A stretch of DNA of 64,000 bases from Egicoccus halophilus (lineage in GTDB: Bacteria > Actinomycetota > Nitriliruptoria > Nitriliruptorales > Nitriliruptoraceae). The notes under the pieces are model-generated. The model worked only from the letters and a program-made list of their open reading frames with translations, did not search any database and was not told where the DNA came from. Location: contig NZ_CP036250.1 in the NCBI RefSeq assembly GCF_004300825.1, positions 2,474,001 to 2,538,000 on the forward strand. Direction: 5' to 3'. A program made the translations under genes and the position numbers. Shown in pieces: positions 6,769-33,618 of this stretch. Position 1 is the first letter of the stretch. Each line of letters begins with the position of its first letter.

Positions 6769-7215
6769 TCAGTCGAGGTCGATGTGCTCGAACGGTTCGT
6801 CGTCCGGGTCGCCGGTCGTCGCGTCGTACGGTGATCGACCGGGCTCCGTGCGGTGCAGGTCGCCCGCGAGGGCGCGCACGGCGTCGGCGAGGTGACGGGC
6901 GGCCTCGGTCAGGTGCCCGACCACCTCGGGGTGTGTGGTGGCGAGCAGGCGCAGACCCACGCACCACGGACAGACCCCGCAGACGTCGGGATCGTGGCCG
7001 TCCGGGGCACCGGGGCGTGCGCCCGCAGCCGGGTCGTGATCACCCGGTTGCCCGCCCGCCGCACGGGGGTCCGGGCCGACACGCTCGTCGCCAGCGGCGC
7101 CGTCCACCGGGCCGGTGCCACGGCGGGCGGTGCGGTGGGCATCGACGGGATCGGCGTCGTCCAGCCCGTCCGTGCCCGGCGGCGAGGACCACCAGGGGTC
7201 GGACGCGGCACTCAC
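6769..7215 (-). CDS. Conserved hypothetical protein with Cys motif
   Basis: A 148-residue protein starting at a GTG that overlaps the ArsA-type ATPase stop codon (GTGA). The first 90 residues are Pro/Gly/Ala-rich and probably disordered. The folded part is C-terminal: a CGVCPWCVGLRLL motif with three cysteines at CxxCxxC spacing, then an amphipathic helix (HLTEAARHLADAVRALAG). An acidic tail follows. It may bind a metal through the cysteines. The arrangement next to an ArsA-like ATPase and a ROK kinase suggests a housekeeping role, but I cannot assign one. Confidence 0.65.
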   Translation of the reverse strand: MSAASDPWWSSPPGTDGLDDADPVDAHRTARRGTGPVDGAAGDERVGPDPRAAGGQPGDHDPAAGARPGAPDGHDPDVCGVCPWCVGLRLLATTHPEVVGHLTEAARHLADAVRALAGDLHRTEPGRSPYDATTGDPDDEPFEHIDLD

Positions 7216-8417
7216 GAGCCCACCTCCACACCGGCCGCCTGCGGACGGAACCGGACCTCGAGCCAGCCGTCGGCGAGGGCGGCGCCGGCCACCCGGTCGC
7301 GTCGCAGCGATCCCGGCAGGGCGACCGTCCGGCGGACACCGGCGACGCGCACGTGCAGGTCGCTGCCGCGCCGGTGCAGGTCGAGTTCCCCACGGGTCGC
7401 GAACGGCAGCGCGATCCGCAGCAGGTGCCCCTCGGCCGTGCGCTCGACGGTGACGGGTCGGACCGGTTCGCGCCACCCCGTCGCGTCCGCGTCGGCGTAG
7501 AGGGCGTCGGCGAGCCGGCGCAGCCCGTCGACACCGATGACCTCGTCGTCGAGCAGCGGGGCACGCAACACCGGGGTGGGCGCGAACGAGGTCCGCAACT
7601 CGGCCAGCTGGGCGGCGTGCCGGTCCTTCCAACGGGCCAGGTATGGGTCGGTGACCTCGTCGGGCAGCACGCGGTTGACCACCAGCGCGTCGACGCCGTA
7701 GCCGAACAGCGACAGGGACGTCGCCGTGCGCTCCGTCTCCGCGACCGAGAGCCGTTCGGGGGTGCACACGAGGCGGATCGCGGCCCGGGCCGGGTCCTGC
7801 AGCAGCGTGTGCACGCGGGCGAGCTGGTCCTGGATCCGCTCGACGGCGGCGAAGACCGGCTCGTCGGGCATCGGTAGCGCTCCCAGGCCGGCGCCACGGA
7901 CCAGCGGGCCCAGCGCGCGGGCCATCCGCCTTCCCGGTCCGGCGATGCGCTCGACGTACCAGCCCAGCGCGTCGGGCAGGGCCAGCAGCCGCAACGTCTC
8001 CGCGGTCGGTGCGCAGTCCACCACGACGAGGTCGTACTCCCCGCTGGCGACCTGCTGCTCGAGGTCGATCAGCGCGAACAGTTCGTCGATCCCCGGCAGC
8101 AGGATCAGCTCCTCGGCCGCGACCGCGCCCATCCCGCCCCACCCCAGCAGCGACACCAGGTAGTCGCGGACGTCGCTCCAGTGATGCTCGAGCCGCGCCT
8201 GCGCGTCGATCTGCAGTCCGGTGAGCCGACCGGGAGCGCCGGGGACGTCCACGGCCCGCGGGCGGTCGTCGAGCGGCTGCGCCAGGGCGTCGGCCAGCGA
8301 GTGCGCCGGGTCGGTGGAGGTGACCAGCACACGTGCCCCGGCGGCTGCGGCGTGGACCGCGGTCGCCGCGGCGACCGACGTCTTGCCGACGCCACCCTTG
8401 CCGGTGAACAGCAGCAC
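7212..8417 (-). CDS. ArsA/GET3-family anion-transporting ATPase
   Basis: Soluble P-loop ATPase of the ArsA/Get3 family, 401 residues. The deviant Walker A motif GKGGVGKT is at 6-13, followed by STDPAHSLAD and a VVVDCAPTAETLRLL block, the usual ArsA signatures. The last 90 residues form a beta-rich domain resembling the small chaperone-like domain fused to actinobacterial ArsA paralogues. No arsenic genes (arsB, arsC, arsR) are nearby, so arsenite efflux is unlikely. The role is probably membrane- or protein-targeting related but unproven. The GTG start is chosen at the family-typical position just before the first strand. The ribosome site is weak. Confidence 0.85.
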   Translation of the reverse strand: MLLFTGKGGVGKTSVAAATAVHAAAAGARVLVTSTDPAHSLADALAQPLDDRPRAVDVPGAPGRLTGLQIDAQARLEHHWSDVRDYLVSLLGWGGMGAVAAEELILLPGIDELFALIDLEQQVASGEYDLVVVDCAPTAETLRLLALPDALGWYVERIAGPGRRMARALGPLVRGAGLGALPMPDEPVFAAVERIQDQLARVHTLLQDPARAAIRLVCTPERLSVAETERTATSLSLFGYGVDALVVNRVLPDEVTDPYLARWKDRHAAQLAELRTSFAPTPVLRAPLLDDEVIGVDGLRRLADALYADADATGWREPVRPVTVERTAEGHLLRIALPFATRGELDLHRRGSDLHVRVAGVRRTVALPGSLRRDRVAGAALADGWLEVRFRPQAAGVEVGS

Positions 8418-8504
8418 GCGGGTCAGGATCGTCTCGATACGACGGTGGGTGACACGAACGGTCCGAGGCTAGCGAACCCTGCCGTGGGGCTCGTCCGCGG
8501 GACG

Positions 8505-8996
8505 TCAGGGGACCAGACCGGCCGAGGTCCGGGCCTCGAGGTGGAGGCGGTCCTTGAGTCCCCACAGGCCTTGGCGTACCGCCCGACGGTAGTCGCGCTG
8601 CAACCGCCGCGACGACGCGGACGGGACGGTTGCGGTCAGCAGGTGGTGCACGACGGTGCCGCCGCCGGTCGGCTCGAGCCAGAACTCCGCTCGACCGTTC
8701 ACCTCCCCGCGCAGTGCCAGGAGGAAGCCCTGCTCGTGGCGCCGGTCGTGCAGGCGCGCGGCGACCCGCAACCGCCGCAACGGTGCCGCCGGCAGCTCCA
8801 GTGCCCACACCTCCTGCGCGGGCCCGTCCGCCCCGGCGCCCGGGGCTCGTTCCGGCGGCATCGCGCGCACCCGGAGGCCCGGCCACCACGTCGGCCAGTC
8901 GTCGACGGCGCTCAACCGGCGGTGGACGAGCGCGACCGGGGCGCGGACGAAACCGTCGTCGTCGACGTGCAGCTCGAGCAGCGGCGACCCCTTCAA
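8505..8996 (-). CDS. SRPBCC (START-like) domain protein
   Basis: A 163-residue protein with the polyketide-cyclase/SRPBCC pattern: an opening strand, a pair of helices with LSAVDDWPTWWPGLR, a long antiparallel sheet ending in GGGTVVHHLL, and a long C-terminal helix. Such proteins bind small hydrophobic ligands or act in lipid handling. Nothing in the sequence fixes the ligand. The start is a TTG overlapping the stop of the upstream hydrolase gene (TTGA), so the two are translated together. Confidence 0.8.
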   Translation of the reverse strand: MKGSPLLELHVDDDGFVRAPVALVHRRLSAVDDWPTWWPGLRVRAMPPERAPGAGADGPAQEVWALELPAAPLRRLRVAARLHDRRHEQGFLLALRGEVNGRAEFWLEPTGGGTVVHHLLTATVPSASSRRLQRDYRRAVRQGLWGLKDRLHLEARTSAGLVP

Positions 8997-22468: not shown

Positions 22469-23626
22469 ATGAACCGGATCTATCTCGACCATGCCTCCGC
22501 CTGGCCCCTGCGTCCCGAGGCCCGTCAGGCGCTGGCGGATGCGGCCACCATGGCCTGGGCCGATCCCACGCGTGGCCACCAGGAGGGGCGGGCGGCCCGC
22601 GACCTGCTCGACCGCGCCTCGGCGACCGTGGCCTTCGCGCTCGGCGCGGACGAACGCGACCTGGTCTGGACCTCCGGCGGGACCGAAGCGGTGCACCTCG
22701 CCGTCCTCGGTTCGGCCCGCGCGGCCGAGCGGCGCGGCGAGCGGCGACGCCACGTCGTGTGCAGCGCCGTCGAGCACTCCTCGGTGCTGCGCGCCTGCGA
22801 ACGGCTACGGACCGAACACGGCTACGACCTCGACGTGGTCGGCGTGGACGCCTCCGGGGCGGTGGACCCCGACGCCGTCGCCGCGGTGGTGCGCGACGAC
22901 ACCCTGGCCGTCCACGTGCAGCACGCCAACCACGAGATCGGCACGCTGCAGCCCACCCACGAACTCGCGAACGCGTGCCACCGCGTCGGCGCACTGCTGC
23001 ACGTCGACGCCTGCCAGACGGTCGGCCAGCTCGGCGTCACGCTCGACCAGCTCGGCGCGGACCTGCTGTCGGCCTCGGGCGCCAAGTTCGGCGGTCCGCG
23101 AGGAGTGGGGCTGCTCGTGCTCGGCCCCCGCGGACGCATCGCCGCCCTGCAGGAGGGCGACGAGCGGCAACGTCGACGCCGGGCCGGGCTCGAGGACGTC
23201 GCCGGCATCGCTGCGACGGCCGTGGCCCTCGAAGTGGCCCGCGCCGAACTGCAGACCGCGTACTCCAGCCGGGAGGTGGTGCGACGCCGGCTGCGCGAGC
23301 GCCTTCCCGCGGCCGTCGAGGATCTGCAGGTCCACGGGCCGCTGGCCGACGCCCATCCCGGCATCGTCGCCGTCAGTGCCCTGTACGTCGACGGCGAGGC
23401 GCTGGTCGGCGAGCTCGACCGTGCCGGGTACGCCGTGCACTCCGGGTCGTCGTGTGCGTCGGACTCCGGACGGCCGTCCCACGTCCTGGTCGCCATGGGC
23501 GTGCTCACCCATGGTCACGTCCGGCTGTCGTTCGGCCCGTCGTTCGACCTCGCCCAGGCCGACGCGTTCGTCGCCACCTACGCCGACACGGTCCGGGCGC
23601 TGCGTCGACGCGGCGGGCTAGGCTGA
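22469..23626 (+). CDS. Cysteine desulfurase family protein (NifS/IscS-like)
   Basis: PLP-dependent class V aminotransferase-fold enzyme, 385 residues, that removes sulfur from cysteine as an enzyme-bound persulfide. PLP contacts include SGGTEAVHLA, HANHEIGT and HVDACQ, with the Schiff-base lysine K206 in SGAKFGGPRG. The catalytic cysteine C329 is in GSSCAS, on the flexible loop. In most IscS/NifS enzymes the lysine follows His (SGHK); here it is SGAK, a small divergence. The protein could supply sulfur for tRNA thiolation or Fe-S assembly. The gene ends 2 nt before the c-di-AMP aptamer. Confidence 0.88.
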   Translation: MNRIYLDHASAWPLRPEARQALADAATMAWADPTRGHQEGRAARDLLDRASATVAFALGADERDLVWTSGGTEAVHLAVLGSARAAERRGERRRHVVCSAVEHSSVLRACERLRTEHGYDLDVVGVDASGAVDPDAVAAVVRDDTLAVHVQHANHEIGTLQPTHELANACHRVGALLHVDACQTVGQLGVTLDQLGADLLSASGAKFGGPRGVGLLVLGPRGRIAALQEGDERQRRRRAGLEDVAGIAATAVALEVARAELQTAYSSREVVRRRLRERLPAAVEDLQVHGPLADAHPGIVAVSALYVDGEALVGELDRAGYAVHSGSSCASDSGRPSHVLVAMGVLTHGHVRLSFGPSFDLAQADAFVATYADTVRALRRRGGLG

Positions 23627-23628
23627 GG

Positions 23629-23746
23629 GCTGCGCCGAACCCGGCGATCGCCGGGGCGGGGGAACCACGCACGTGGGGCGAGTCCCGACACACCCGTCGG
23701 GTAGGGCTGCTCCGGCCCGAGCCCGTCAGCTAACCCCGCAGGCAGC
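23629..23746 (+). ncRNA. Cyclic di-AMP riboswitch (ydaO/yuaA type)
   Basis: The stretch matches the ydaO aptamer in order. It has a P1 stem GCTGC (23629-23633) with GCAGC (23742-23746), the conserved GCCGAACCC, a CCGGCG/CGCCGG hairpin (23641-23654) and the GCGGGGGAACCA internal segment. These are followed by a TAGGG segment and the hallmark CCGTCAGCTAACCCCG close to the 3' strand. The GAGGAGG ribosome site starts one nucleotide after P1 and the start codon is at 23759, so ligand binding could act on translation. It begins right after the cysteine desulfurase-like gene's stop, so transcription must start inside that gene or read through. Confidence 0.88.
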
Positions 23747-23758
23747 GAGGAGGCCGAC

Positions 23759-24871
23759 GTGCCCGCGCCCGCACGCTCCATCCTGGTGCCGATCGCCAAT
23801 CCCGCGTCGGTTCGACCACTGCTCGCCCTGGCCGCAGCCCTGGCCACCGACGGCGAGACGCTCGTGCCCCTGGTCGTGGTCCGCCCCTCGGCGTCCTCCG
23901 GCGAGCGGGCCGAGGCACTGGCGAGCGTGGCCGAAGCCGAGGAGGTCGGTGCCGAGCTCGCCCATCGGGTCGCGGGCCGGGTGCTGGAGGCCGACGACGT
24001 GGCCGAGGGGGTGCTGTCCGCGGTCGCGGCGGACGCCACCGCCCTGGTGCTGATGGGCTGGCGTGGGCAGAGCTCGACCACCAACGTCTTCGGGCGACTG
24101 CTCGACACCATCGTGGGCCGTTGTGCCGCTCCCCTGGCGGTCGTCCGCCTCGGCGTCGTGCCCTTCCGGCGCGTGCTGCTGCCCGTCAGCGCCGACCACC
24201 TGCTTCCGGGTGGCGACCGTGGCCTGGACCTCGCCGCGCGGCTCGCGGCGCGGCTCGACGCCACGACCCCGCAGCCCGCGACCGTGCTGCGGACCGGCGC
24301 CCGAGCGGTGCAGTTGCCACCCGAGCTCGAACGCCTCGGCGACCGGATCCATCACGACCCACGGCGGACCGACCAGGCCGTCGGGGCGTTCGCCCGCGCC
24401 GAGGACGTGATCGTGGCGCCGGTCGCCCCGACGGTGTCGGGCCTGCGCGCGGCGACCACCCATCTCGCCTGGGCGGCACCCGAGGCGACCCTGCTCGTCG
24501 CGATCGACGCCGGCCCGACGCGGGAGGAGGGGCTGGCCGAGGCGGTGGACGCTGCCGGCGTCCCGGCGCCGGTCCCATCGGGACCGCACGACCTGCGGGC
24601 CGTGCGCATCGTCGTCACCGCCCGCCTCCCGGGGGACGGCGTCCGCCCCGACGACCTCGGACGGGTACTGCGCGCGGCAGGAGCCACCGACCAGGTGATG
24701 GCGTGGTGGCCGGCAGGTGATCCCCATCCGCACGTGCGGGCGACCGTGACGGTCGAGGCGCCGAACGTGAACGCCGCCATCGCCTGCGTGATGGAGGCGG
24801 TGCACGACGCGCCGGCCTTCCGCGGCGCCGAGATCAGCTACGACGTGGAACCTGTCGTCGAACGCGGTTGA
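23759..24871 (+). CDS. Tandem universal stress protein-like protein under c-di-AMP riboswitch
   Basis: A 370-residue soluble protein. Domain 1 (about 5-125) opens like a Usp domain (SILVPIANPASVRPLLALAA) and has MGWRGQSSTTNVFG followed by CAAPLAVVRLG. Domain 2 (about 130-265) repeats the pattern from RRVLLPVSADHL. A third alpha/beta part (about 280-365) is unassigned. The Usp pair resembles the cytosolic C-terminal region of c-di-AMP-regulated amino-acid/K+ permeases, here without any membrane part. Regulation by the upstream riboswitch points to potassium or osmotic homeostasis. GTG 23759 follows GAGGAGG. Confidence 0.8.
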   Translation: MPAPARSILVPIANPASVRPLLALAAALATDGETLVPLVVVRPSASSGERAEALASVAEAEEVGAELAHRVAGRVLEADDVAEGVLSAVAADATALVLMGWRGQSSTTNVFGRLLDTIVGRCAAPLAVVRLGVVPFRRVLLPVSADHLLPGGDRGLDLAARLAARLDATTPQPATVLRTGARAVQLPPELERLGDRIHHDPRRTDQAVGAFARAEDVIVAPVAPTVSGLRAATTHLAWAAPEATLLVAIDAGPTREEGLAEAVDAAGVPAPVPSGPHDLRAVRIVVTARLPGDGVRPDDLGRVLRAAGATDQVMAWWPAGDPHPHVRATVTVEAPNVNAAIACVMEAVHDAPAFRGAEISYDVEPVVERG

Positions 24872-24888
24872 TCCCCCACCGTGCGCGC

Positions 24889-24895
24889 TCGGTAG
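24889..24895 (+). repeat. Candidate attL core TCGGTAG
   Basis: TCGGTAG lies 18 nt after the Usp-like gene stop and recurs at 32572-32578, just upstream of the integrase start. Beyond the 7-mer both copies continue with TG and GCC at the same offset (pattern TCGGTAG-N2-TG-N-GCC). Serine integrases need only a short shared core, so the length is acceptable, but such a short repeat could arise by chance. Confidence 0.4.
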
Positions 24896-25287
24896 CCTGC
24901 GCCTCGCGGGGAACGCCCCGTCGCGACCCGGTCGACACCGACCGGTGGCGCCTGCGCCGGGCCACATCAGGACCGGCGAGCAGCAGACCGGGCGACCATG
25001 AGGACGGGTGGCCCTATGCGTGGCAAGCACACCACTGTTGACGGGCGTCCGTCGCGCGCCGACGCGGCCGTCTCGGACGCTGAGCGGCCCGCAATAGGGC
25101 CGTGCGAGAAGTAATACGCCACATTGCGTGCCCCGACAGCGGGTGCTTCCATGGGGTAGTCGGTTCTGCCCCGACGCCCCGCCAAAAGCGGGGGAATCTC
25201 CCGAAACCCTACGGGGCGCGCAGAGGCTGGGACGCGCAGAGGGGTCGCTGAGACGAGGCTACGGCCTCGGACCGGGGACCATCTGCG
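24896..25287. other. Left end of the mobile element, non-coding
   Basis: A 392-nt stretch without a convincing gene. It holds a short hairpin (CGGCCC / GGGCCG around 25085-25102) and two direct copies of CGCGCAGAGG (25217-25226 and 25233-25242) just before the HTH gene. It is less GC-extreme than the flanks (for example GAAGTAATACGCCACATTG near 25110). It probably contains the promoter and operator of the element's early operon. Confidence 0.5.
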
Positions 25288-25512
25288 ATGAGTCTGTTGT
25301 CCCTTTCCCCCGCCGTCCGCGCCCTCCACGGGGCCGGTATCTCCGCCGCCGACCTCGCCCGCGACCTGGGCATCAGTGAGCGGACGGTCCAGCACTGGCT
25401 TCGAGGCGACACGCGCCCCCGCCCGGCCCTCTGGGACGCCATCGCGCAGCGTGGCGGCCCTGCCCTGGCGAAGCGAGTTCGGCGGCTGGTGCCCGGAGAG
25501 GCGGTCCGATGA
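25288..25512 (+). CDS. Small helix-turn-helix DNA-binding protein
   Basis: A 74-residue protein with a Cro/C1-type helix-turn-helix in the middle (ISAADLARDLGISERTVQHW, then LRGDTRPRPALWDAI). It may repress the element's early genes or act as a recombination directionality factor, since it lies at the opposite end from the integrase and would be next to it in the circle. The stop overlaps the start of the next small gene (ATGA). No ligand domain is present. Confidence 0.75.
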   Translation: MSLLSLSPAVRALHGAGISAADLARDLGISERTVQHWLRGDTRPRPALWDAIAQRGGPALAKRVRRLVPGEAVR

Positions 25513-25658
25513 CGGCCGCCGAGTTCGCTGCCGCCGAGCGGGCCACCCAAGGGCTGCCCGAGAAGGTGTCCGACCCGGCCACCCTCGCCCGCCTCGCCGC
25601 GCTGTTCCTCGCTGCTGACGCGACTGGCTACTTCGTGGAGGCCCGACGTGCCGCGTGA
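25509..25658 (+). CDS. Small hypothetical protein, 49 residues
   Basis: A short frame that is tightly packed between its neighbours: its ATG overlaps the HTH stop (ATGA) and its last codons overlap the GTG of the next gene by 11 nt. The product is helical (AAEFAAAERATQGL, then LARLAALFLAADATGYFVEA) and acidic. No family is recognised. The packing is the main evidence that it is real. Confidence 0.6.
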   Translation: MTAAEFAAAERATQGLPEKVSDPATLARLAALFLAADATGYFVEARRAA

Positions 25659-26748
25659 CCGGATCGCCGAGGTCGGACGCGCCACGCGGTACCTGATCGC
25701 ACAGGCTGGGTCTGCACGGCTGACCGTCGCTGACCATCGGGCGCTGCTCGGCGTGCTCGCTACGACAGCCTCCTGGTCGCGCCTGGCCGACGACGTCTCC
25801 CTCAGTCAGGTCGTCGCCGCGTGCGGTGCCGACAGAAGCGACGTCCGGCGAAGCCTGCGCCGCCTCACGGAACTCGGCCTGATCGAGCACGTGCCAGGCG
25901 TGGCGGCCACCAAGGGGCAGAAGGGACGGCCGGGGCGGCTCGCCCTCCTCCCCGCGCCGCACAACTGGGTCGACCCGCTCGATCCGGGATGGGCAGGGCG
26001 GGGGTCCCCGGACCCCCGTACGGCGGACCAGGGGTCCCCGGACCCCCAGGGTGGGGGTGGGGGGACCCCCAGGGTGGGGGTCCCGGGACCCCCCACCGAG
26101 GAGTTTCCCGAGGAGTTCTCCGAGAAGACCCCCCCCGCGCCCGCGCCTGCGGACACACCCACGCCTGCGTGCGAGCAGGCAAAGGCAGGGGGGGCTGACC
26201 AGTCAGAACTCAGCAACCGCTGGGATGCGATCCGGCCGTCCGGCGCCCTCGGTCGCCGAATGACCGCCGCCCTCGAAACGGACGGCAAGGCTCGAAGTCA
26301 GATGACCGAAGCCCTCACCGCTGCAACCCGAGCGGGACTGCGGGACAGCGAACTTCGACGGCTCCACGACAAGCCGACCCCGCTCGACGCCGAAGGAGTC
26401 CGCTTCCCGATCGCCGCATTCGCCAAGCGCATCTCCGCAGCCGCCAGTCAGGCCGCCGCCAAAGCAGCCGAGCGTGCCGAGCGCCAGGCCCAAGTCGCGC
26501 ACCTGCAGTTCGTCGACCCACCGGCTCGGGAACTCAGCGACCAAACCCGGTCTCGCGTCGCCCTCAGCCAACGCCTGAGACGCGAACTCGGCCTCGTCAA
26601 CGCCGCCCACCTGGCCCACGCCCTCACCTGGATCGAGCGCAACTTCTCGCCTCCCAACCCCTTCGCCGAAGCCGAACTGATCCTCGACCAGGACCCCGAC
26701 CAGCTGCGACGGCAACTCGCCGACGCCGTCCCAGGAGCAGGCCGATGA
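25648..26748 (+). CDS. Winged-helix replication initiator-like protein
   Basis: A 366-residue protein. The N-terminal part (about 5-95) is a winged helix: VSLSQVVAACGADRSDVRRS and LTELGLIEHVPG. A Gly/Pro-rich linker (about 112-165) is encoded by G-tract palindromes. A C-terminal helical domain (about 185-365) contains basic Ala-rich helices. The position as the largest early gene, after an HTH gene, suits a plasmid/element replication initiator, and such proteins often carry the origin inside their gene. No primase or rolling-circle motif is visible, so the role is inferred. Confidence 0.5.
   Translation: MPRDRIAEVGRATRYLIAQAGSARLTVADHRALLGVLATTASWSRLADDVSLSQVVAACGADRSDVRRSLRRLTELGLIEHVPGVAATKGQKGRPGRLALLPAPHNWVDPLDPGWAGRGSPDPRTADQGSPDPQGGGGGTPRVGVPGPPTEEFPEEFSEKTPPAPAPADTPTPACEQAKAGGADQSELSNRWDAIRPSGALGRRMTAALETDGKARSQMTEALTAATRAGLRDSELRRLHDKPTPLDAEGVRFPIAAFAKRISAAASQAAAKAAERAERQAQVAHLQFVDPPARELSDQTRSRVALSQRLRRELGLVNAAHLAHALTWIERNFSPPNPFAEAELILDQDPDQLRRQLADAVPGAGR
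26001..26096 (+). repeat. G-tract palindromes inside the replication-like gene
   Basis: Two copies of GGGGTCCCCGGACCCC (26001-26016 and 26031-26046) are followed by related runs of GGGGGG, ACCCCC and GTCCCGGGACCCCC up to 26096. Each copy can form a 7-bp stem with a 2-nt loop, and the runs could also form G-quadruplexes. They encode a Gly/Ser/Pro/Asp linker. An origin or iteron role is possible because they lie in the likely initiator gene. Confidence 0.7.
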
Positions 26749-26990
26749 CCACACCGCCCCTCCCCGACCTGCTGGAAATGCCAGCGGGCGAAGCCAGCGA
26801 CACCTTCGGCCCCTCCGACGCCGACGGCCGTCACGGCGACCGGCTCACCATCGCCCGCAAGCTCGCCCCCTTCGGCGGCTGCACCTGCACACCCGACGTC
26901 GACATCGCCTTCGTGCACGGCACCTGGGTCGTCAGCTACGGACACGAGCACCGCTGCCGCCGGCTCGCCAGCCTCCAACAGAGGAACTGA
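26745..26990 (+). CDS. Small Cys/His-containing hypothetical protein
   Basis: An 81-residue protein whose ATG overlaps the previous stop (ATGA). The C-terminal half has GGCTCTPDVDIAFVHGTWVV and then a SYGHEHRCRRL block, giving three cysteines and several histidines that could bind a metal. No known family is recognised. Its place in the packed early operon of the mobile element supports expression. Confidence 0.6.
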   Translation: MTTPPLPDLLEMPAGEASDTFGPSDADGRHGDRLTIARKLAPFGGCTCTPDVDIAFVHGTWVVSYGHEHRCRRLASLQQRN

Positions 26991-26993
26991 GCG

Positions 26994-27377
26994 ATGGCCA
27001 GCGGAAGCGAAACAGAGAGCGCCACAAAATCGCGCGTGCACGAGAACGCGGCGTACGAGCCGTCGGAGTCGGCCGCTGCGGCGACGTCGCGGCGGATGGC
27101 CCGGCAGCTGGTCCGGTCACGGGAACGTGGCTGCGCGTGCCCGCTCGACCTGACGTTTCGGGGCAGCGGACCTCGCTGGCGTCACCAGCCCGGCTGCCCG
27201 GCCGTGAAGTCGAAGCGCCGCCGCCGTGGTGTGCGGCCTCGAGTCGAAGGCCCCCACGTGTCGGAACGGCCCACCACCAGCCGGTGTGGCGCGGCGACCC
27301 GCGACGGGCGCCCGTGCCGCCAGAAGGTCGGCCCTGAGGCGCCCTGCAAGTACCACGGCCAGGGAGGGACAGCGTGA
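26994..27377 (+). CDS. Small protein with C-terminal Cys/His knuckle
   Basis: A 127-residue, basic protein. The last 32 residues have the phage/plasmid-type motif RCGAATRDGRPCRQKV, then APCKYHGQGG: three cysteines plus histidine, a small zinc knuckle common in actinophage and integrated-element proteins. A second CxC...C group occurs at CACPLDLTF and PGCPAVK. Function is unknown, possibly nucleic-acid binding. It is 3 nt after the preceding gene, and its stop overlaps the next start (GTGA). Confidence 0.6.
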   Translation: MASGSETESATKSRVHENAAYEPSESAAAATSRRMARQLVRSRERGCACPLDLTFRGSGPRWRHQPGCPAVKSKRRRRGVRPRVEGPHVSERPTTSRCGAATRDGRPCRQKVGPEAPCKYHGQGGTA

Positions 27378-27496
27378 GCCGCCTGACCTGCGCCTACTGC
27401 CAGTTCCCCGTCGACCTGAAGGCAGAACCGCCCCCTTGCACCGGCTGCGGCCGGACCCAACCGAGACCACGTAAGGAGACCCATCGTGAACACTGA
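27374..27496 (+). CDS. 40-residue zinc-ribbon miniprotein
   Basis: A short frame beginning with a GTG that overlaps the previous stop (GTGA) and overlapping the next start. The product has a classic CxxC...CxxC layout: TCAYCQFP then CTGCGR, separated by 12 residues. That fits a treble-clef or zinc-ribbon minidomain. Coupled translation on both sides and the motif make it plausible despite its size. No function is assigned. Confidence 0.6.
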   Translation: MSRLTCAYCQFPVDLKAEPPPCTGCGRTQPRPRKETHREH

Positions 27497-28232
27497 CACC
27501 CTCGTCCCGCACGACGCCGAGGCCGCACTGAAGGCCGAGCAGGACCGCTTCGACCGGATGTTCGACGACATCGACAGCAAGGTCGGCCAGGCCCTCGGCG
27601 CCTTCGAGACCGGCTCGCTGGCCGGCATGCCGCAGCCGGTGCAGGAGGCGTGGCGGGCAATGACCGGCGCGCTCAACGCCGCGCAGCTGAAGGCCAACGG
27701 CGCGCACAGCCGAATCCGCGACACGGCCAGCAACGATGCGCTGCCGAAGGAGCACCGCGAGCGGGTGGTCCGGGAAACCCGCGACCAGGGCGAGTCGGAG
27801 GTCAACGACGCCATCGAGCGGGCACGCACCCATCTGGCCGTCTTGGAGGCCAACCTCCGTGCCGCTGCCGTCGGCAGCCCGGACGCCAACCCGACGTCCC
27901 GGCAGCTGGCCCGCGACGAAATCCGGCTGACCCTCGACCAGCTCGACCCGACGCAGGTACCTGCCGCCGCAGTCGATCTCGCCGGCCGTAACGGCGACCT
28001 GGCGAGCGAGCTGCTCGGCCGCTGGGGCCGCGCCTACCTTCAGTCGCGCGGCTTCGACAACGTCCGCGACTTCGCCGACATCGAGACGGCTGCCATCGCC
28101 GGTCTGGCCACGCACGGCCAGGGGTCTCAGCGTCAGGCGGCCAGCGCCTGGGTCGGCCTCCGCCGTCACAAGATCGCCGGCCAGATCGACGCCCGCCTGG
28201 TGGCCTCGCGCTACCGGCTCGGTCTGAGCTAG
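27486..28232 (+). CDS. Helical hypothetical protein of the mobile element
   Basis: A 248-residue soluble protein, strongly alpha-helical and Ala-rich. Probable coiled-coil segments lie at about 10-35 (AALKAEQDRFDRMFDDIDSK) and 95-130. I recognise no family. GTG 27486 has GGAG upstream (AAGGAGACCCATC). It is the last gene of the rightward early operon: a strong hairpin terminator follows 50 nt after the stop. Confidence 0.6.
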   Translation: MNTDTLVPHDAEAALKAEQDRFDRMFDDIDSKVGQALGAFETGSLAGMPQPVQEAWRAMTGALNAAQLKANGAHSRIRDTASNDALPKEHRERVVRETRDQGESEVNDAIERARTHLAVLEANLRAAAVGSPDANPTSRQLARDEIRLTLDQLDPTQVPAAAVDLAGRNGDLASELLGRWGRAYLQSRGFDNVRDFADIETAAIAGLATHGQGSQRQAASAWVGLRRHKIAGQIDARLVASRYRLGLS

Positions 28233-28283
28233 CCGCAACTGACCTGCCGTCACCGCCTCGTCCTTCGGGCGGCTGACGGCGGC

Positions 28284-28320
28284 ACGCGCCCCGGCCCCTC
28301 CTGCTCCGGCCGGGGCGCGT
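28284..28320 (+). terminator. Hairpin terminator after the element's early operon
   Basis: A perfect 13-bp stem (28284-28296 with 28308-28320, GC-rich core GCGCCCCGGCC) and an 11-nt loop lie 51 nt after the previous stop codon. There is no U-run, as is usual for actinobacterial terminators. Confidence 0.7.
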
Positions 28321-28348
28321 CGCTGTCCTCGGCGGCTAGGGTTCGCGC

Positions 28349-28993
28349 ATGGCGACGCGACCTCATGACGATGGCTTAGGACGGATGTACGACCAAGTCC
28401 GTCTTTGGCCTGCCGACCTACGCGAGATCGAGTCGATATTGCAGTCGGCCAAATCGGACCGTGGGAAGCTGACGATCAAGACTGACAAGTTTGAAGGTGA
28501 CACTATTGATGAAATTGTCGATGCGGAAACGCGCTTCAAGGTCAAGTCGATCACGTTCTCACTTAGCGATAGACTCGAAAATGTATACCTCAGAGTGACG
28601 GGATTCGGCGGCCGGCTGAGCGTCACAGGCGGCAACAATGATGCTTTCGGCGCCGCCGCGTTCCGCATCCAGACCATAATGCAATCAAGCCAGCGGCCTG
28701 AGTGGGTGCGATCTCTGCTGAACCCTTACTTTCTTGGTTCGCTAGCTGCTCTCATAGCGCTTGCTGCGCAGGATTGGGGTGGCGCGGGCTTCTTCCCCAT
28801 CTTCGGTGTTACCTTCACAATCTTGATTTCGGTCTTCAATTACTTCACTTTGCGCGGATCTGCTGTGTACATGCAGGAGCGGCCGACGCGTCCTTCCTTC
28901 TGGAGAAGAAACAGCGACCGAATAGTCGTCGGCGCCATCATTGCAGTCGTTAGTTCACTGCTGACATTGCTCGTCAGCGGACTGACGACTTAA
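28349..28993 (+). CDS. Cargo membrane protein with cytosolic N-terminal domain
   Basis: A 214-residue protein of lower GC and different codon use (ATA, AAT, TTG, AGA) than its neighbours, so it was probably acquired separately. Residues 1-115 form a soluble alpha/beta domain beginning with a helix (PADLREIESILQSAK) and followed by strands. Three hydrophobic segments follow at about 127-144, 147-168 and 191-211. A sensor-plus-membrane layout is seen in some anti-phage effectors, but there is no family match I can name. It stands alone after a terminator. Confidence 0.65.
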   Translation: MATRPHDDGLGRMYDQVRLWPADLREIESILQSAKSDRGKLTIKTDKFEGDTIDEIVDAETRFKVKSITFSLSDRLENVYLRVTGFGGRLSVTGGNNDAFGAAAFRIQTIMQSSQRPEWVRSLLNPYFLGSLAALIALAAQDWGGAGFFPIFGVTFTILISVFNYFTLRGSAVYMQERPTRPSFWRRNSDRIVVGAIIAVVSSLLTLLVSGLTT

Positions 28994-29051
28994 GGGGTTG
29001 CTTTCCCTTGCGCTCGACCCCCCGGCCGGGGCGTACATAGCTGAGCGCCCG

Positions 29052-29088
29052 CTCCGACTCAAGGGAGGGCTATCCCGTTAAGTCGGAG
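29052..29088. other. Hairpin in the gap before the second cargo gene
   Basis: The 250-nt gap 28994-29243 holds an 8-bp stem CTCCGACT (29052-29059) with AGTCGGAG (29081-29088), with an inner GGGA/TCCC pair. It could terminate the upstream cargo gene or act in the leader of the next. A ribosome site GAGGAG (29228-29233) precedes the next gene. Confidence 0.5.
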
Positions 29089-29243
29089 ACATATGTCCGG
29101 GCGGGGCGGCCGCGCCGCCGGCCCGCCGGGCGCCGTCAGCGCGCCCGTCGGTGGTGTGTACGCCGCCCGAAGGCACCCCTGCAGCGACGTGGCACACCGC
29201 ACGCGCTATCGTGCTCCTCGGGCAGGCGAGGAGCGTGGGGGCC

Positions 29244-30305
29244 GTGCAGGTACGTGAAGAGAAGCAACGGAATGAGGTCGCCGAGCCGGTGACGGCTCTC
29301 ACAGCAGTGGCCCGACCGATCATCGCCTCCGTACTGCACTCGATCTCGGCTGAGCGCCTTCAAGGTGTCGAATCGCGGGAGGACATCCCACTCCGAATGC
29401 TAGGAGTTCTCCGTAACGAAGGTGACGGGGATGTCGGGGTAGCTTTCGAGTACGCCGTACACGATGCCATGGCGAACGGCAACGAGGCGATCCTCGACCG
29501 GGTGAGTGACGCGCTTTCCTTGTGTCGAATCAAGACTGACCGGCCGTCATCGATTTTCTTCGCGATGGAGAAGGCAGGATCGCAACGGCTCATCAACACG
29601 CAGCTCGATCTCATCACGGATGACTCGCGCGTCCTTTCGGGGAATCGGGGTCAGCCGGTCAAGCTGAAGAACTATCTAAACCAACTGGCTGCAGCCTTCA
29701 GACGGCCGAGCACACGCCCAAATCTGCCGCAGAGCATCCGCGGGCTGTGGAAAGCGGACCTTTTCCTAGGCGCACCCGAGCGTGAGCATTGGGTTGGCAC
29801 CAGCGTCCGGATCAACCCACGCAAGCTGGAAGGGGCCCACGGACTGCGGGTAGCGATCGTTCCGGCCCAGTACGGCAGGTCTGACGCACTCAGGAAGGAT
29901 GAATCACGAAATTTGATCGTCTGCCCGGTGCCGTATGACCCGACGTTCATGTTGATCTTTTGGGAAGGCTGGAGGATCGTACAGTCCCTCATGGAGTCCG
30001 ACTTTCGACTACCAGCGGACCGAGATCTCCCTGCCCCCGAGCATCGTCAAGTCGCACAGATCTTTGCTGAGCGGCGGGACCTCAGCGTAAAGGACGCTAT
30101 CGAGTCAACCGCCAAGTTCGCTCAACCGCACCTCCTCGAAACCGACGCGCGCGATCTCTCCGCGCTGCCCTACTCGGCCGAGGCCCCGGCGGGGACCGGA
30201 ACGCTGGTCGCACCGATCGCGTACGGCTTCGAGGGTGACACAGCGACGCCCCCGCCAGCGTCGGTGGGAGTGCCCGCATCACGGCCGGTCAGACCTTCGG
30301 GATGA
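29244..30305 (+). CDS. Cargo protein of unknown function, possible PD-(D/E)xK-like nuclease
   Basis: A 353-residue soluble protein of lower GC than the chromosome. The frame is open from ATG 29151, but GTG 29244 with GAGGAG 10 nt upstream fits better. Possible nuclease-fold landmarks are FEYAVHDAM (early Glu), GLWKADLFLG (Asp) and HWVGTSVRIN (a T-x-R where many enzymes have E-x-K). The expected lysine is not there, so catalysis is uncertain. A low-complexity Pro-rich tail follows residue 310. Its position beside a lone membrane protein within a mobile element makes a defence role conceivable but unproven. Confidence 0.55.
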   Translation: MQVREEKQRNEVAEPVTALTAVARPIIASVLHSISAERLQGVESREDIPLRMLGVLRNEGDGDVGVAFEYAVHDAMANGNEAILDRVSDALSLCRIKTDRPSSIFFAMEKAGSQRLINTQLDLITDDSRVLSGNRGQPVKLKNYLNQLAAAFRRPSTRPNLPQSIRGLWKADLFLGAPEREHWVGTSVRINPRKLEGAHGLRVAIVPAQYGRSDALRKDESRNLIVCPVPYDPTFMLIFWEGWRIVQSLMESDFRLPADRDLPAPEHRQVAQIFAERRDLSVKDAIESTAKFAQPHLLETDARDLSALPYSAEAPAGTGTLVAPIAYGFEGDTATPPPASVGVPASRPVRPSG

Positions 30306-30510
30306 AGTGCGACCAGCCAAGCGCCTCGAACTTCGCCGCGACCCTCTTCCGCTGAGCCGCCGTGGTGGCTTCCCGGTAGTCCCGGATCAGGTGCCCCTTC
30401 AGCCGGCCGTCGTGGCCAGGGCGGAAGCGTCCCCCCTTCGTCTGCTCGCCGCAGCTGCACTCGCAGTCGCGCGGGGTCCGGGCCGTCTTCTTTTCGGTCT
30501 TCTCAGTCAC
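30289..30510 (-). CDS. Small Cys-containing phage/plasmid-type protein
   Basis: A 73-residue basic protein with the motif CECSCGEQTKGGRFRPGHDG, a pattern I associate with small proteins of actinophages and integrative elements, followed by a helical part (YREATTAAQRKRVAAKFEAL). Function is unknown. GTG 30510 has AAAGG upstream. It is convergent with the preceding cargo gene and overlaps its end by 17 nt. Confidence 0.65.
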   Translation of the reverse strand: MTEKTEKKTARTPRDCECSCGEQTKGGRFRPGHDGRLKGHLIRDYREATTAAQRKRVAAKFEALGWSHFIPKV

Positions 30511-30646
30511 CGGGGTGCCTTTCGTCGTATATCCCCTTACGTCGGACGAAAACACGCCGACTGATCGCGACACAAGGCTGCGCGCGTCGGACGGATGTCG
30601 GCTGGCGTCGCACACAAGACGTCTGTGTCGAGTCGAGGTTCCGCAG

Positions 30647-30934
30647 TTGAGCGCGTCCGAGATCGCGAAGGGAGTTGCTGAGATTTTCAGCATCTTGGTC
30701 GCGGTTGCAGCGGCAATAACCTTCTTAGACAGCCTTTCCGGTTGGCCGCAAGTCGTATGCCTTCTGGCCCTTCTCCACTTCGGGGGGACATTCGTCCTCC
30801 CGAGATGTGTCCAGTGCGGATCCACCACCATCTCCGGTGGAGGACTTATCGACCAAGGCGTGAAGTTCTGCAGCCTTTGGTGCGCCGACCAGCATCGCAA
30901 GCGTTTTTCGCCCCATATCGGAACAGACCGCTGA
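30647..30934 (+). CDS. Small membrane protein with C-terminal zinc-binding motif
   Basis: About 95 residues from TTG 30647. The true start is uncertain, since the frame is open from 30515. Two hydrophobic stretches occur (IFSILVAVAAAITFL and VVCLLALLHFGGTFVL). A Cys cluster CVQCGS, then CSLWCADQH follows, a probable zinc knuckle. GC is lower than the chromosome. No family is recognised. It ends 46 nt before the repaired end of the integrase gene (convergent). Confidence 0.5.
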   Translation: MSASEIAKGVAEIFSILVAVAAAITFLDSLSGWPQVVCLLALLHFGGTFVLPRCVQCGSTTISGGGLIDQGVKFCSLWCADQHRKRFSPHIGTDR

Positions 30935-30980
30935 TGTGCGATGCCGACGCCAGGGGACCCTTACGCCCGCCGCACACCAG

Positions 30981-32556
30981 TCAGACACGCCAGGTGACCG
31001 CGATCCGTTGCGCTTCCACGGCTGGCCCTTCTTCTCGGCCTTCCGGATCGTGATCTGCTCGCACATCGCAACCACGACCGCACGACGCCAAGCGACCCGG
31101 GCACGCTGCCGTTTCGCCGCCTGCTCGTCGTCCAGGCCGTCCGGGTCCGGACCGATGCCGCCCTCGTTCCAGGCCCGGCGCAGCCCCTCCGCGTCCGACG
31201 GCAGCCCGACCAGCGCCGACGTGTGGTCGTCCGCTGACAGTTCCCGCCTGGCCTCGGCGATCCGCCCGTCCAACTTGGCCTTCGCCGCCAGGAAGGCTGC
31301 CTTCCCGATAGCGCGCTCGACGTAGTGGTCGTTAGTCAGCTCGACCAGCGCCGCCTCGTCCGCCACCAGCCGGTCTGCCAGCCGCTGTTTCCACTCCGAG
31401 TAGCGGACGCCGCCGCCATCGCCGCCGTCAGCCCGTCCCCCTCTAGCACCGACAAAAGGCGGTCTCGGATTTCGTCGTCCGTCTGCGGGCCGACGATCGA
31501 CACGCCGCCGCAGCCGCGCCAGTTCTCCCGCACCGTCTGGTCCCCCTCAGGCGGGCACCGGTAGATCGGCACACGGCGGGCGTTGTAGCTGCCGACCAGG
31601 CGAGCACCACAGATGCCGCATACCGCGATGCCGGTCAGGAGACGGCTGCGCGCGGGACGACTCCGCTTCGCCGGGGCGAACCTTACCTTCAGCTGCTCGT
31701 GGGCGGCACGGTCGAGGATTGGCTCCCACGGCGCGTCACCGATCACTTCGCCCTTGTAAACCAATTGCCCGGACAGGCGCGGATTCGTGATCGTCCGTTT
31801 CAGACCGTCGGTGGACCAGCGGCTGCCCGACGTCGTCCGGAAGCCCTGCTCGTTGAGCCAGCGGGACGTCGCGAACAGGGAACTGCCGGCCAGGAGCAGA
31901 CGGGCGGCTTCACGGATCGCGGCGGCCTCCTCCGGGACGACGTCGAAGGCGCGGCAGCCTCCACCAGCGCACCCGCAGGGCTCGTGTGTCGCCGAGCGGC
32001 GCGGACCGTGCACCCGCGCGTCCGGCTTCGTGCAGTCGGGGCCTGGGCAGCACAGGCCGGTGTGGTAACCGAACAATCGCGAACCGCCCGTGTACTTCCC
32101 GGCCTTCGTCAGCTCCAGCATCTTCCGCGACACACGCTCCGCGTGCCGCTCCGACTCGTGGCGAGCGACGCTTCCCAACATGCGCGCTAGGAGGCGCCCT
32201 GCAGACGTCGAGAGGTCGAGGTCTCCTGCGGTTACCGTGCGAACGGCCGCACCTGACGCTTCGATCGCCTCGATGAAGTCCTCGAGTTCCCTTGGCTGGC
32301 GGTGCAAACGGTCGGCATGCCACGCGACTACGGCCTGGATACGCCCGCGAGCCAGGTCATCCATCATCCGCTGGTATTGCTCCCGAGGCTTCTTTCCCGA
32401 CGCCGACGTGTCATTCTCGACGTAGACCTCGCCGACCTCCCAGCCCTCCCGCTGGACCAGACGTGCGCAGTCCTCCCGCTGCCGTTCGACGCCGAGCTGG
32501 GTGCCGTCTCGGTCCTGGCTGATCCGGACGTAGATTCCTGCTCTGATGCTGGCCAC
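30981..32556 (-). pseudogene. Large serine integrase, broken by two single-base deletions
   Basis: The resolvase domain starts with AGIYVRISQDRDG (catalytic serine S13), followed by the recombinase domain and a CGICGARLVG...YRCP zinc ribbon. The original frame runs from GTG 32556 (AGGAGG upstream) to about 31415. The coiled coil and C-terminus (RYSEWKQRLADRL... AVVVAMCEQITIRKAEKKG) lie one frame over, and the end (RIAVTWRV, stop 30981-30983) in the third frame. Restoring one base in the GCC run (31407-31418) and one in the CCC run (31025-31029) gives exactly 526 codons (525 aa), a normal size. A Cys-rich insert (CCPGPDC... CGCAGGGC) lies before the recombinase domain. Confidence 0.85.
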
Positions 32557-32571
32557 GGGCGCCTCCTGCGA

Positions 32572-32578
32572 TCGGTAG
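32572..32578 (+). repeat. Candidate attR core TCGGTAG
   Basis: Second copy of the 7-mer at 24889-24895, 16 nt upstream of the integrase start codon, where attP normally lies. Joining the flanks at this 7-mer would give TAGTGT as a -10 box ahead of tusA, so insertion may have altered that promoter. Confidence 0.4.
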
Positions 32579-32619
32579 TGTGCCACAGTCGATCACGGGT
32601 GACCGCAGGAGACGACGCC

Positions 32620-32871
32620 ATGACCGACGCCCCGACCGGACGCGAGGTCGCCGTCGAGGTCGACGCGAGCGGGATGAGCTGCCCCATGCCGGTGATCGAG
32701 CTCGCCAAGGCGGTCGAGGGTGTCGCGGTCGGGCAGATCGTGCGGTTGCTCGCGACCGACCCGGCCGCGAAGGTCGACGTCCCGGTGTGGTGCCGGATGC
32801 AGCGCCAGGAGCTGACCGGGCAGGTCGAGCGGGACCGCGTGTGGCACTTCGAGGTCCGTCGGGCTCATTGA
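32620..32871 (+). CDS. TusA family sulfurtransferase
   Basis: An 83-residue sulfur-carrier protein with the hallmark CPMP motif (C21) and the family beta-alpha-beta order. TusA proteins accept persulfide sulfur from a cysteine desulfurase and pass it on for tRNA thiolation or sulfur metabolism. The cysteine desulfurase-like gene at 22469 lies on the other side of the mobile element, only about 1.3 kb away in the ancestral arrangement, so the two may have been neighbours. ATG after GCAGGAG. Confidence 0.88.
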   Translation: MTDAPTGREVAVEVDASGMSCPMPVIELAKAVEGVAVGQIVRLLATDPAAKVDVPVWCRMQRQELTGQVERDRVWHFEVRRAH

Positions 32872-33404
32872 CGTCGGCACGCTCCCCGCAGCAGCCCGGC
32901 CAGGATCCGGAGGTCGGTGTCGTCCGGGCTGGCGGCGACGTGTCCGGCCAGACCTTCGAGGTCGACCAGCAGCCGTCCGTGCAACCACAACGGGTCGGGC
33001 GGCTCGCACGAGATGTCGGCCCCGGCCGCCTCCGCGGCCGAGGGCGGCAGCGAGTGCAGCAGGCGTACCACGTCGGGCTCGCCGCCCAGCGGGACCCGGG
33101 CGAGCCGGCCTCCCCGGCCCCAGCGCACCCGCAGGCGCTCCCACACGTCCTCGTAGCACGCCCAGGCTGCCTGCGACCCGAGCTCGTCGAGGTCGGCACC
33201 GGTCTCGGCGCGGATCGCGCCGAGCACCCGACGGTGCAGCGACTCCACCCAGGCGTAGCGGGCGCCGTCGGGATCGCTGAGCGTGCGCACGAGCTCACCG
33301 TGGTGACCGACGCTGGCCCGTTCCACCCGCACCACCACCGCGTCACGCACACCGGCGTGCCACCCACCCACGAGCAGGTCGTTCCAGCCGCTGTCGTCGT
33401 CCAC
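32865..33404 (-). CDS. Hypothetical protein
   Basis: A 179-residue soluble protein not matching any family I know. It is rich in Trp, Leu and Arg, with a helical middle (GSQAAWACYEDVWERLRVRW) and a C-terminal helix pair. No signal peptide or membrane segment is present. GTG 33404 follows GAGGAC at a good distance. An ATG further upstream would add 19 basic residues. It is convergent with tusA, overlapping its end by 7 nt. Confidence 0.6.
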   Translation of the reverse strand: MDDDSGWNDLLVGGWHAGVRDAVVVRVERASVGHHGELVRTLSDPDGARYAWVESLHRRVLGAIRAETGADLDELGSQAAWACYEDVWERLRVRWGRGGRLARVPLGGEPDVVRLLHSLPPSAAEAAGADISCEPPDPLWLHGRLLVDLEGLAGHVAASPDDTDLRILAGLLRGACRRQ

Positions 33405-33618
33405 GCGCGTGTCCTCACGGTCGCACGGGCCGTCCGGCGTCGGCCGCCGCGGCCGCGCCACGCGGATTCCCGCACTCCCGAGCCGACCCTACCGATCGTG
33501 CGGTCAGCAGACCACTGTTCGTGGTCACCCGACCGGTCGGCCGATATCTTGCGCGATGGACGGGCGTCGAGACGGGGGGCCTGACCGGATCTGTCCGGCT
33601 GTTCGAAGGCCCGCCTCC

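Follow-up and report, generated by a model that had tools for sequence, protein, structure and literature searches.

The window examined here, the whole 64-kb stretch of DNA that was analysed, contains a c-di-AMP (ydaO-type) riboswitch aptamer between a NifS-like gene and the gene for a soluble tandem universal stress (Usp) protein (usp). The features of the locus are as follows.

22469..23626, plus strand: upstream NifS/cysteine-desulfurase-like gene, an inconstant partner containing the putative promoter (Pfam Aminotran_5; NCBIfam below cut-off)
23619..23624, plus strand: -10-like hexamer TAGGCT, lying within the 3' end of the NifS-like coding sequence and likely serving as promoter for the riboswitch-usp mRNA (read from the sequence)
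23631..23636, plus strand: 5' strand of P1, UGC GCC (sequence)
23634..23743, plus strand: c-di-AMP (ydaO-type) riboswitch aptamer, RF00379 (cmscan, with compensatory changes in relatives)
23741..23747, plus strand: 3' strand of P1, GGC, a bulged A and GCG, the last base being the first base of the Shine-Dalgarno sequence (sequence)
23747..23753, plus strand: Shine-Dalgarno sequence GAGGAGG, 5 nt before the GTG start codon (sequence)
23759..24871, plus strand: usp, encoding a soluble protein of 370 residues with Usp-like domain 1 (about 6-130), Usp-like domain 2 (about 136-253) and ferredoxin-like domain 3 (about 278-364) (ORF call, Pfam, AF2 and fold matches)

Scanning of the window with cmscan gave RF00379 as the sole Rfam match above threshold, at 23634-23743 on the plus strand with 65.9 bits (gathering score 38) and an E value of 4.7e-13. 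A ydaO-type aptamer had been proposed here, with the RF00379 covariance model as its check, and the model bears the proposal out; the sequence motifs quoted for the aptamer are likewise present in the window. The same RNA precedes the orthologous gene in four other Nitriliruptoraceae genomes (G003, G004, G011 and G022; 49-74 bits), and across the eight leaders found in the class compensatory changes occur in 9 of 33 pairs around a nearly invariant aptamer core, so the riboswitch is not a chance match. Pairing of the outer part of P1 is possible in several leaders (UGC/GCG in the window, CGC/GCG in G003, CAC/GUG in G011), and the GCC of P1 begins eight bases past the NifS-like stop codon. Free minimum-energy folds of the whole leaders were set aside as uninformative, because they disrupt the known aptamer. 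The genome carries one diadenylate cyclase domain (PF02457). The riboswitch is thus an ordinary, well-supported member of RF00379 (the ydaO/yuaA leader), with the same core, pairing scheme and position before a gene and a score well over the cut-off. It differs from the family in its short outermost P1 and in its target, a soluble tandem-Usp protein rather than a K+ or amino-acid transporter or a cell-wall hydrolase.

A hexamer of the form TAnnnT is found just once within the 300 nt upstream in all eight class leaders, 14-17 nt before the aptamer core. In the window this is TAGGCT (23619-23624), which overlaps the last codons of the NifS-like gene. Transcription would likely start at about 23630-23632, 6-8 nt past TAGGCT, so that the RNA would begin at P1. 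No promoter of the E. coli sigma-70 type passed a consensus scan. The original prediction that the promoter lies within the cysteine desulfurase-like gene agrees with this site and with the spacing kept in the eight leaders, on sequence grounds. The gap from aptamer to start codon, given there as 13 nt, is 15 nt when counted between the last base of the match and the GTG that begins at 23759.

The neighbours of usp vary among relatives, with no conserved operon partner seen and no ion transporter adjoining usp in the loci whose neighbours were scanned, so the neighbourhood does not indicate a partner transporter. In the window an element of roughly 7.7 kb with a serine recombinase gene (31336-32586) occupies about 24850-32640 and separates usp from the conserved gene that comes next (32865-33461); in relatives, usp and the equivalent of the latter gene are adjacent. 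Genome G001 has no riboswitch and carries two copies of a caacgagagagcgaagcgagcgagacaggggacccggccg-like repeat between NifS and usp (L012:1360-1480). In G005 (L057:5528-8946) a RelA/SpoT gene immediately precedes the usp ortholog, both genes being on one strand.

Pfam recognised a Usp domain (PF00582) in the protein at residues 6-130 only (33.1 bits, gathering score 24), the second Usp half being recognised by fold. The AF2 model of the 370 residues (pLDDT 86, pTM 0.82) has two Usp-like folds followed by a beta-alpha-beta-beta-alpha-beta third domain. Neither a Pfam match to the PF00999 membrane domain nor a run of hydrophobic helices or a clear transmembrane stretch was found in the protein, and the predicted architecture of two Usp-like domains and a third domain lacking a membrane part therefore stands. 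For residues 4-253 the best fold match was 3g40, the cytosolic domain of a prokaryotic cation-chloride cotransporter (Z 16.9, 227 aligned residues, 3.4 A), tied with the tandem Usp 3ab7 (TTHA0350; Z 16.4) and followed by the tails of human KCC/NKCC transporters. The protein thus shares two fused Usp-like folds with 3g40 and 3ab7 (Z 16-17 over 227 residues), whereas identity is 12-15% and the third domain falls outside these matches. The Usp fold of 3hgm, which we take from its entry title to be TeaD, the Usp tied to the TeaABC transporter of the halophile Halomonas elongata and presumably its regulator, also matched (Z 11.7 over 118 residues); TeaD is a single Usp, unlike the tandem protein here.

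The third domain alone was modelled with a pLDDT of 91 and has no Pfam family. Its ferredoxin-like matches of PII type (SbtB/PII, E 2e-3 to 1e-2) and ACT type (Z 7.5-9.7) were weak, too weak to name it PII-like or ACT. A PDB sequence search with the protein returned no relative, and NCBIfam has no family for it. The motif of ATP-type Usps is G-X2-G-X9-G-(S/T), and that of the c-di-AMP-binding USP domain of KdpD is (A/G/C)XSXSX2N(Y/F) (PMC8214093). The Walker-like motif of the protein, GWRGQSSTTNVFGRL, is degenerate (G-X2-G-X8-G-R), and the motif of ATP-binding Usps (USPFG) does not match. The KdpD-USP motif was also absent from the protein, as was a motif of the RCK_C type, (I/L)(I/L)X2DX1RX5N(I/L)(I/L), in a motif-level search in which the last residue was assumed and the start of the motif was as given in PMC10117811. 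The known motifs thus lend no support to a c-di-AMP receptor of KdpD-USP or RCK_C type, a result that for RCK_C bears on the motif and not on the fold.

The genome contains only one more RF00379 match, on the minus strand at C1:266921-267076. Downstream of it comes a Na_H_Exchanger gene whose product carries a Usp tail; a second antiporter gene of this kind is found immediately upstream, the two lying within C1:264830-269000. Searched against the genome at E<=0.001, the soluble protein matched only one other sequence, the tail of the antiporter after this second riboswitch (E 8e-16), which aligns with residues 8-250 at 32% identity over 255 columns (BLASTP 7e-17); none of the five stand-alone Usp genes of the genome matches at that threshold. 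The original reading missed this context: the antiporter under this riboswitch is of the CPA2 type and its tandem-Usp tail is homologous to the soluble protein, which is therefore no stranger to ion transport. A profile of the soluble family matched 23 antiporter-type tails of the class (1e-27 to 1e-55). In the tree the soluble proteins group in a single clade, separate from all 23 CPA2 tails, which rules out a recent truncation of an antiporter gene. Compared with CPA2 antiporters with a tandem-Usp tail (PF00999 plus PF00582), the soluble protein lacks the membrane part, has a ferredoxin-like domain and a degenerate Walker-like motif, and belongs to a separate clade. The idea of a soluble, c-di-AMP-linked regulator of K+/H+ antiporters is shared with KhtT/CpeA-type regulators of CPA2 antiporters (PMC10117811); those use RCK_C domains and share an operon with their transporter, neither of which was seen for the soluble protein. 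No KdpA was found in the genome. At L039:4833-6845 and about 7155-8990 (minus strand) two CPA2 antiporter genes with Usp tails stand in tandem with the c-di-AMP riboswitch between them, and G003 has a similar antiporter pair with a riboswitch.

RF00379 was detected in six of the 66 genomes of the class, in eight copies. All eight precede members of the same tandem-Usp family, five of them soluble and three forming the tails of CPA2 Na+(K+)/H+ antiporters. The related records are labelled Nitriliruptoraceae and are largely metagenome-assembled genomes, many named CSSed, which we take to mean an origin in soda-lake sediment. A sample of 86 further genes linked to the riboswitch in the phylum, for which the downstream gene was picked automatically and some picks are bound to be wrong, contained no Usp, whereas peptidase M23, NlpC/P60, transglycosylase, K+ transporter and radical SAM aminomutase genes were common, in line with the original view of a Usp-type effector as a less usual ydaO target. 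What stands out most is that the riboswitch is confined, throughout the class, to one tandem-Usp family; the target itself is unusual.

Other ydaO-type switches respond to c-di-AMP by shutting their genes off, Streptomyces rpfA being an example (PMC10117811). The Shine-Dalgarno sequence directly follows P1 in the window and abuts it in four of five usp leaders, and no terminator-like site was found at 23300-25300; P1 beside the ribosome site and the missing terminator favour translational control, and the aptamer is probably a translational OFF switch. The close packing from which such control was first proposed does fit it, though short gaps are common in the actinobacterial sample. The same riboswitch and target could instead work by premature termination of transcription, possibly Rho-dependent, as reported for rpfA, the characterised actinobacterial ydaO-type case (PMC10117811). 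The leaders of G004 (97 nt from aptamer to aligned coding region) and of the CPA2 genes (from tens of nt to about 100 nt) are longer, differently built platforms with alternative pairings, which speaks for this reading; the spacing of just 15 nt from aptamer to start codon in the window, together with the missing terminator, makes it improbable here. A leader that starts upstream of NifS, with the riboswitch inside a NifS-usp operon message, would suit the few bases between the NifS-like stop and the aptamer. However, G011 and G022 showed no NifS in the space from the receiver-like gene to usp, and in G004 the gene upstream is a reductase; since the -10-like site, aptamer and usp stay together while the upstream gene differs, aptamer and usp travel as a unit, and we regard an operon message as distinctly unlikely. 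That the RNA is a decaying relic, being lost from a gene normally free of c-di-AMP control, might be read from its distribution: it precedes the soluble gene in five genomes, was undetected before most orthologs, two congeners included, and requires at least three changes on the soluble-protein tree. Against this, the core is almost invariant in eight copies while the helices covary, and the spacing from promoter to aptamer is constant, which leaves a relic very unlikely. Past the aptamer of the G004 leader (L013:1405-1485), GGCUCCUCG has two possible pairing partners, CGAGGAGG on the P1 side and the real Shine-Dalgarno sequence, like a classic switching platform. An extension of P1 pairing with the Shine-Dalgarno sequence, as in G004 (CCUCCUCG/CGAGGAGG), was rejected for the other leaders because the predicted transcription start would exclude most of its 5' strand.

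As to function, the protein might be an ordinary ATP-type universal stress protein that came under the riboswitch by happenstance and has nothing particular to do with ion transport. Its fold is fitted as well by tandem Usps such as 3ab7 as by transporter domains, and the soluble group is a clade of its own; yet its match within the genome at E<=0.001 is an antiporter tail and none of the stand-alone Usps, and its Walker-like motif departs from the ATP-type pattern, so that we hold this to be rather unlikely. Homology, fold and shared control suggest that the protein is likely a diffusible regulator of ion or osmolyte homeostasis. A more specific proposal, that the detectable c-di-AMP riboswitch regulon of the class consists of one tandem-Usp family only, whose soluble member regulates CPA2 antiporters diffusibly under c-di-AMP control at the RNA level and perhaps binds a nucleotide, is tentative and, taken whole, unlikely; if it held, the regulatory domain of a transporter would come in an attached and an unattached form, both governed by c-di-AMP.

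The best joint explanation, which we favour with modest confidence, is a translational OFF switch for c-di-AMP over a diffusible regulator of ion homeostasis. Transcription from a promoter within the last codons of the NifS-like gene would produce an mRNA with the aptamer as its first structured part. Binding of c-di-AMP would stabilise P1, whose 3' strand runs into the Shine-Dalgarno sequence, reducing ribosome access so that little protein is made; a drop in c-di-AMP, as on low K+ or a salt or osmotic change, would allow the soluble protein to be made. The protein would then be a free-standing version of the tandem-Usp regulatory tail of CPA2 antiporters with a ferredoxin-like domain added, acting in trans on ion or osmolyte homeostasis.

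A cytosolic Usp-type effector joins the genes under c-di-AMP riboswitches, and homology ties it to the regulatory domains of antiporters. These bacteria come from saline and apparently soda-lake settings, and the soluble protein is a concrete, testable candidate for how c-di-AMP helps actinobacteria survive salt. With a c-di-AMP riboswitch at the start of its message and the cytosolic tails of ion antiporters as its closest relatives, it is likely a new part of the link between c-di-AMP and ion balance in a group of salt-lake bacteria.
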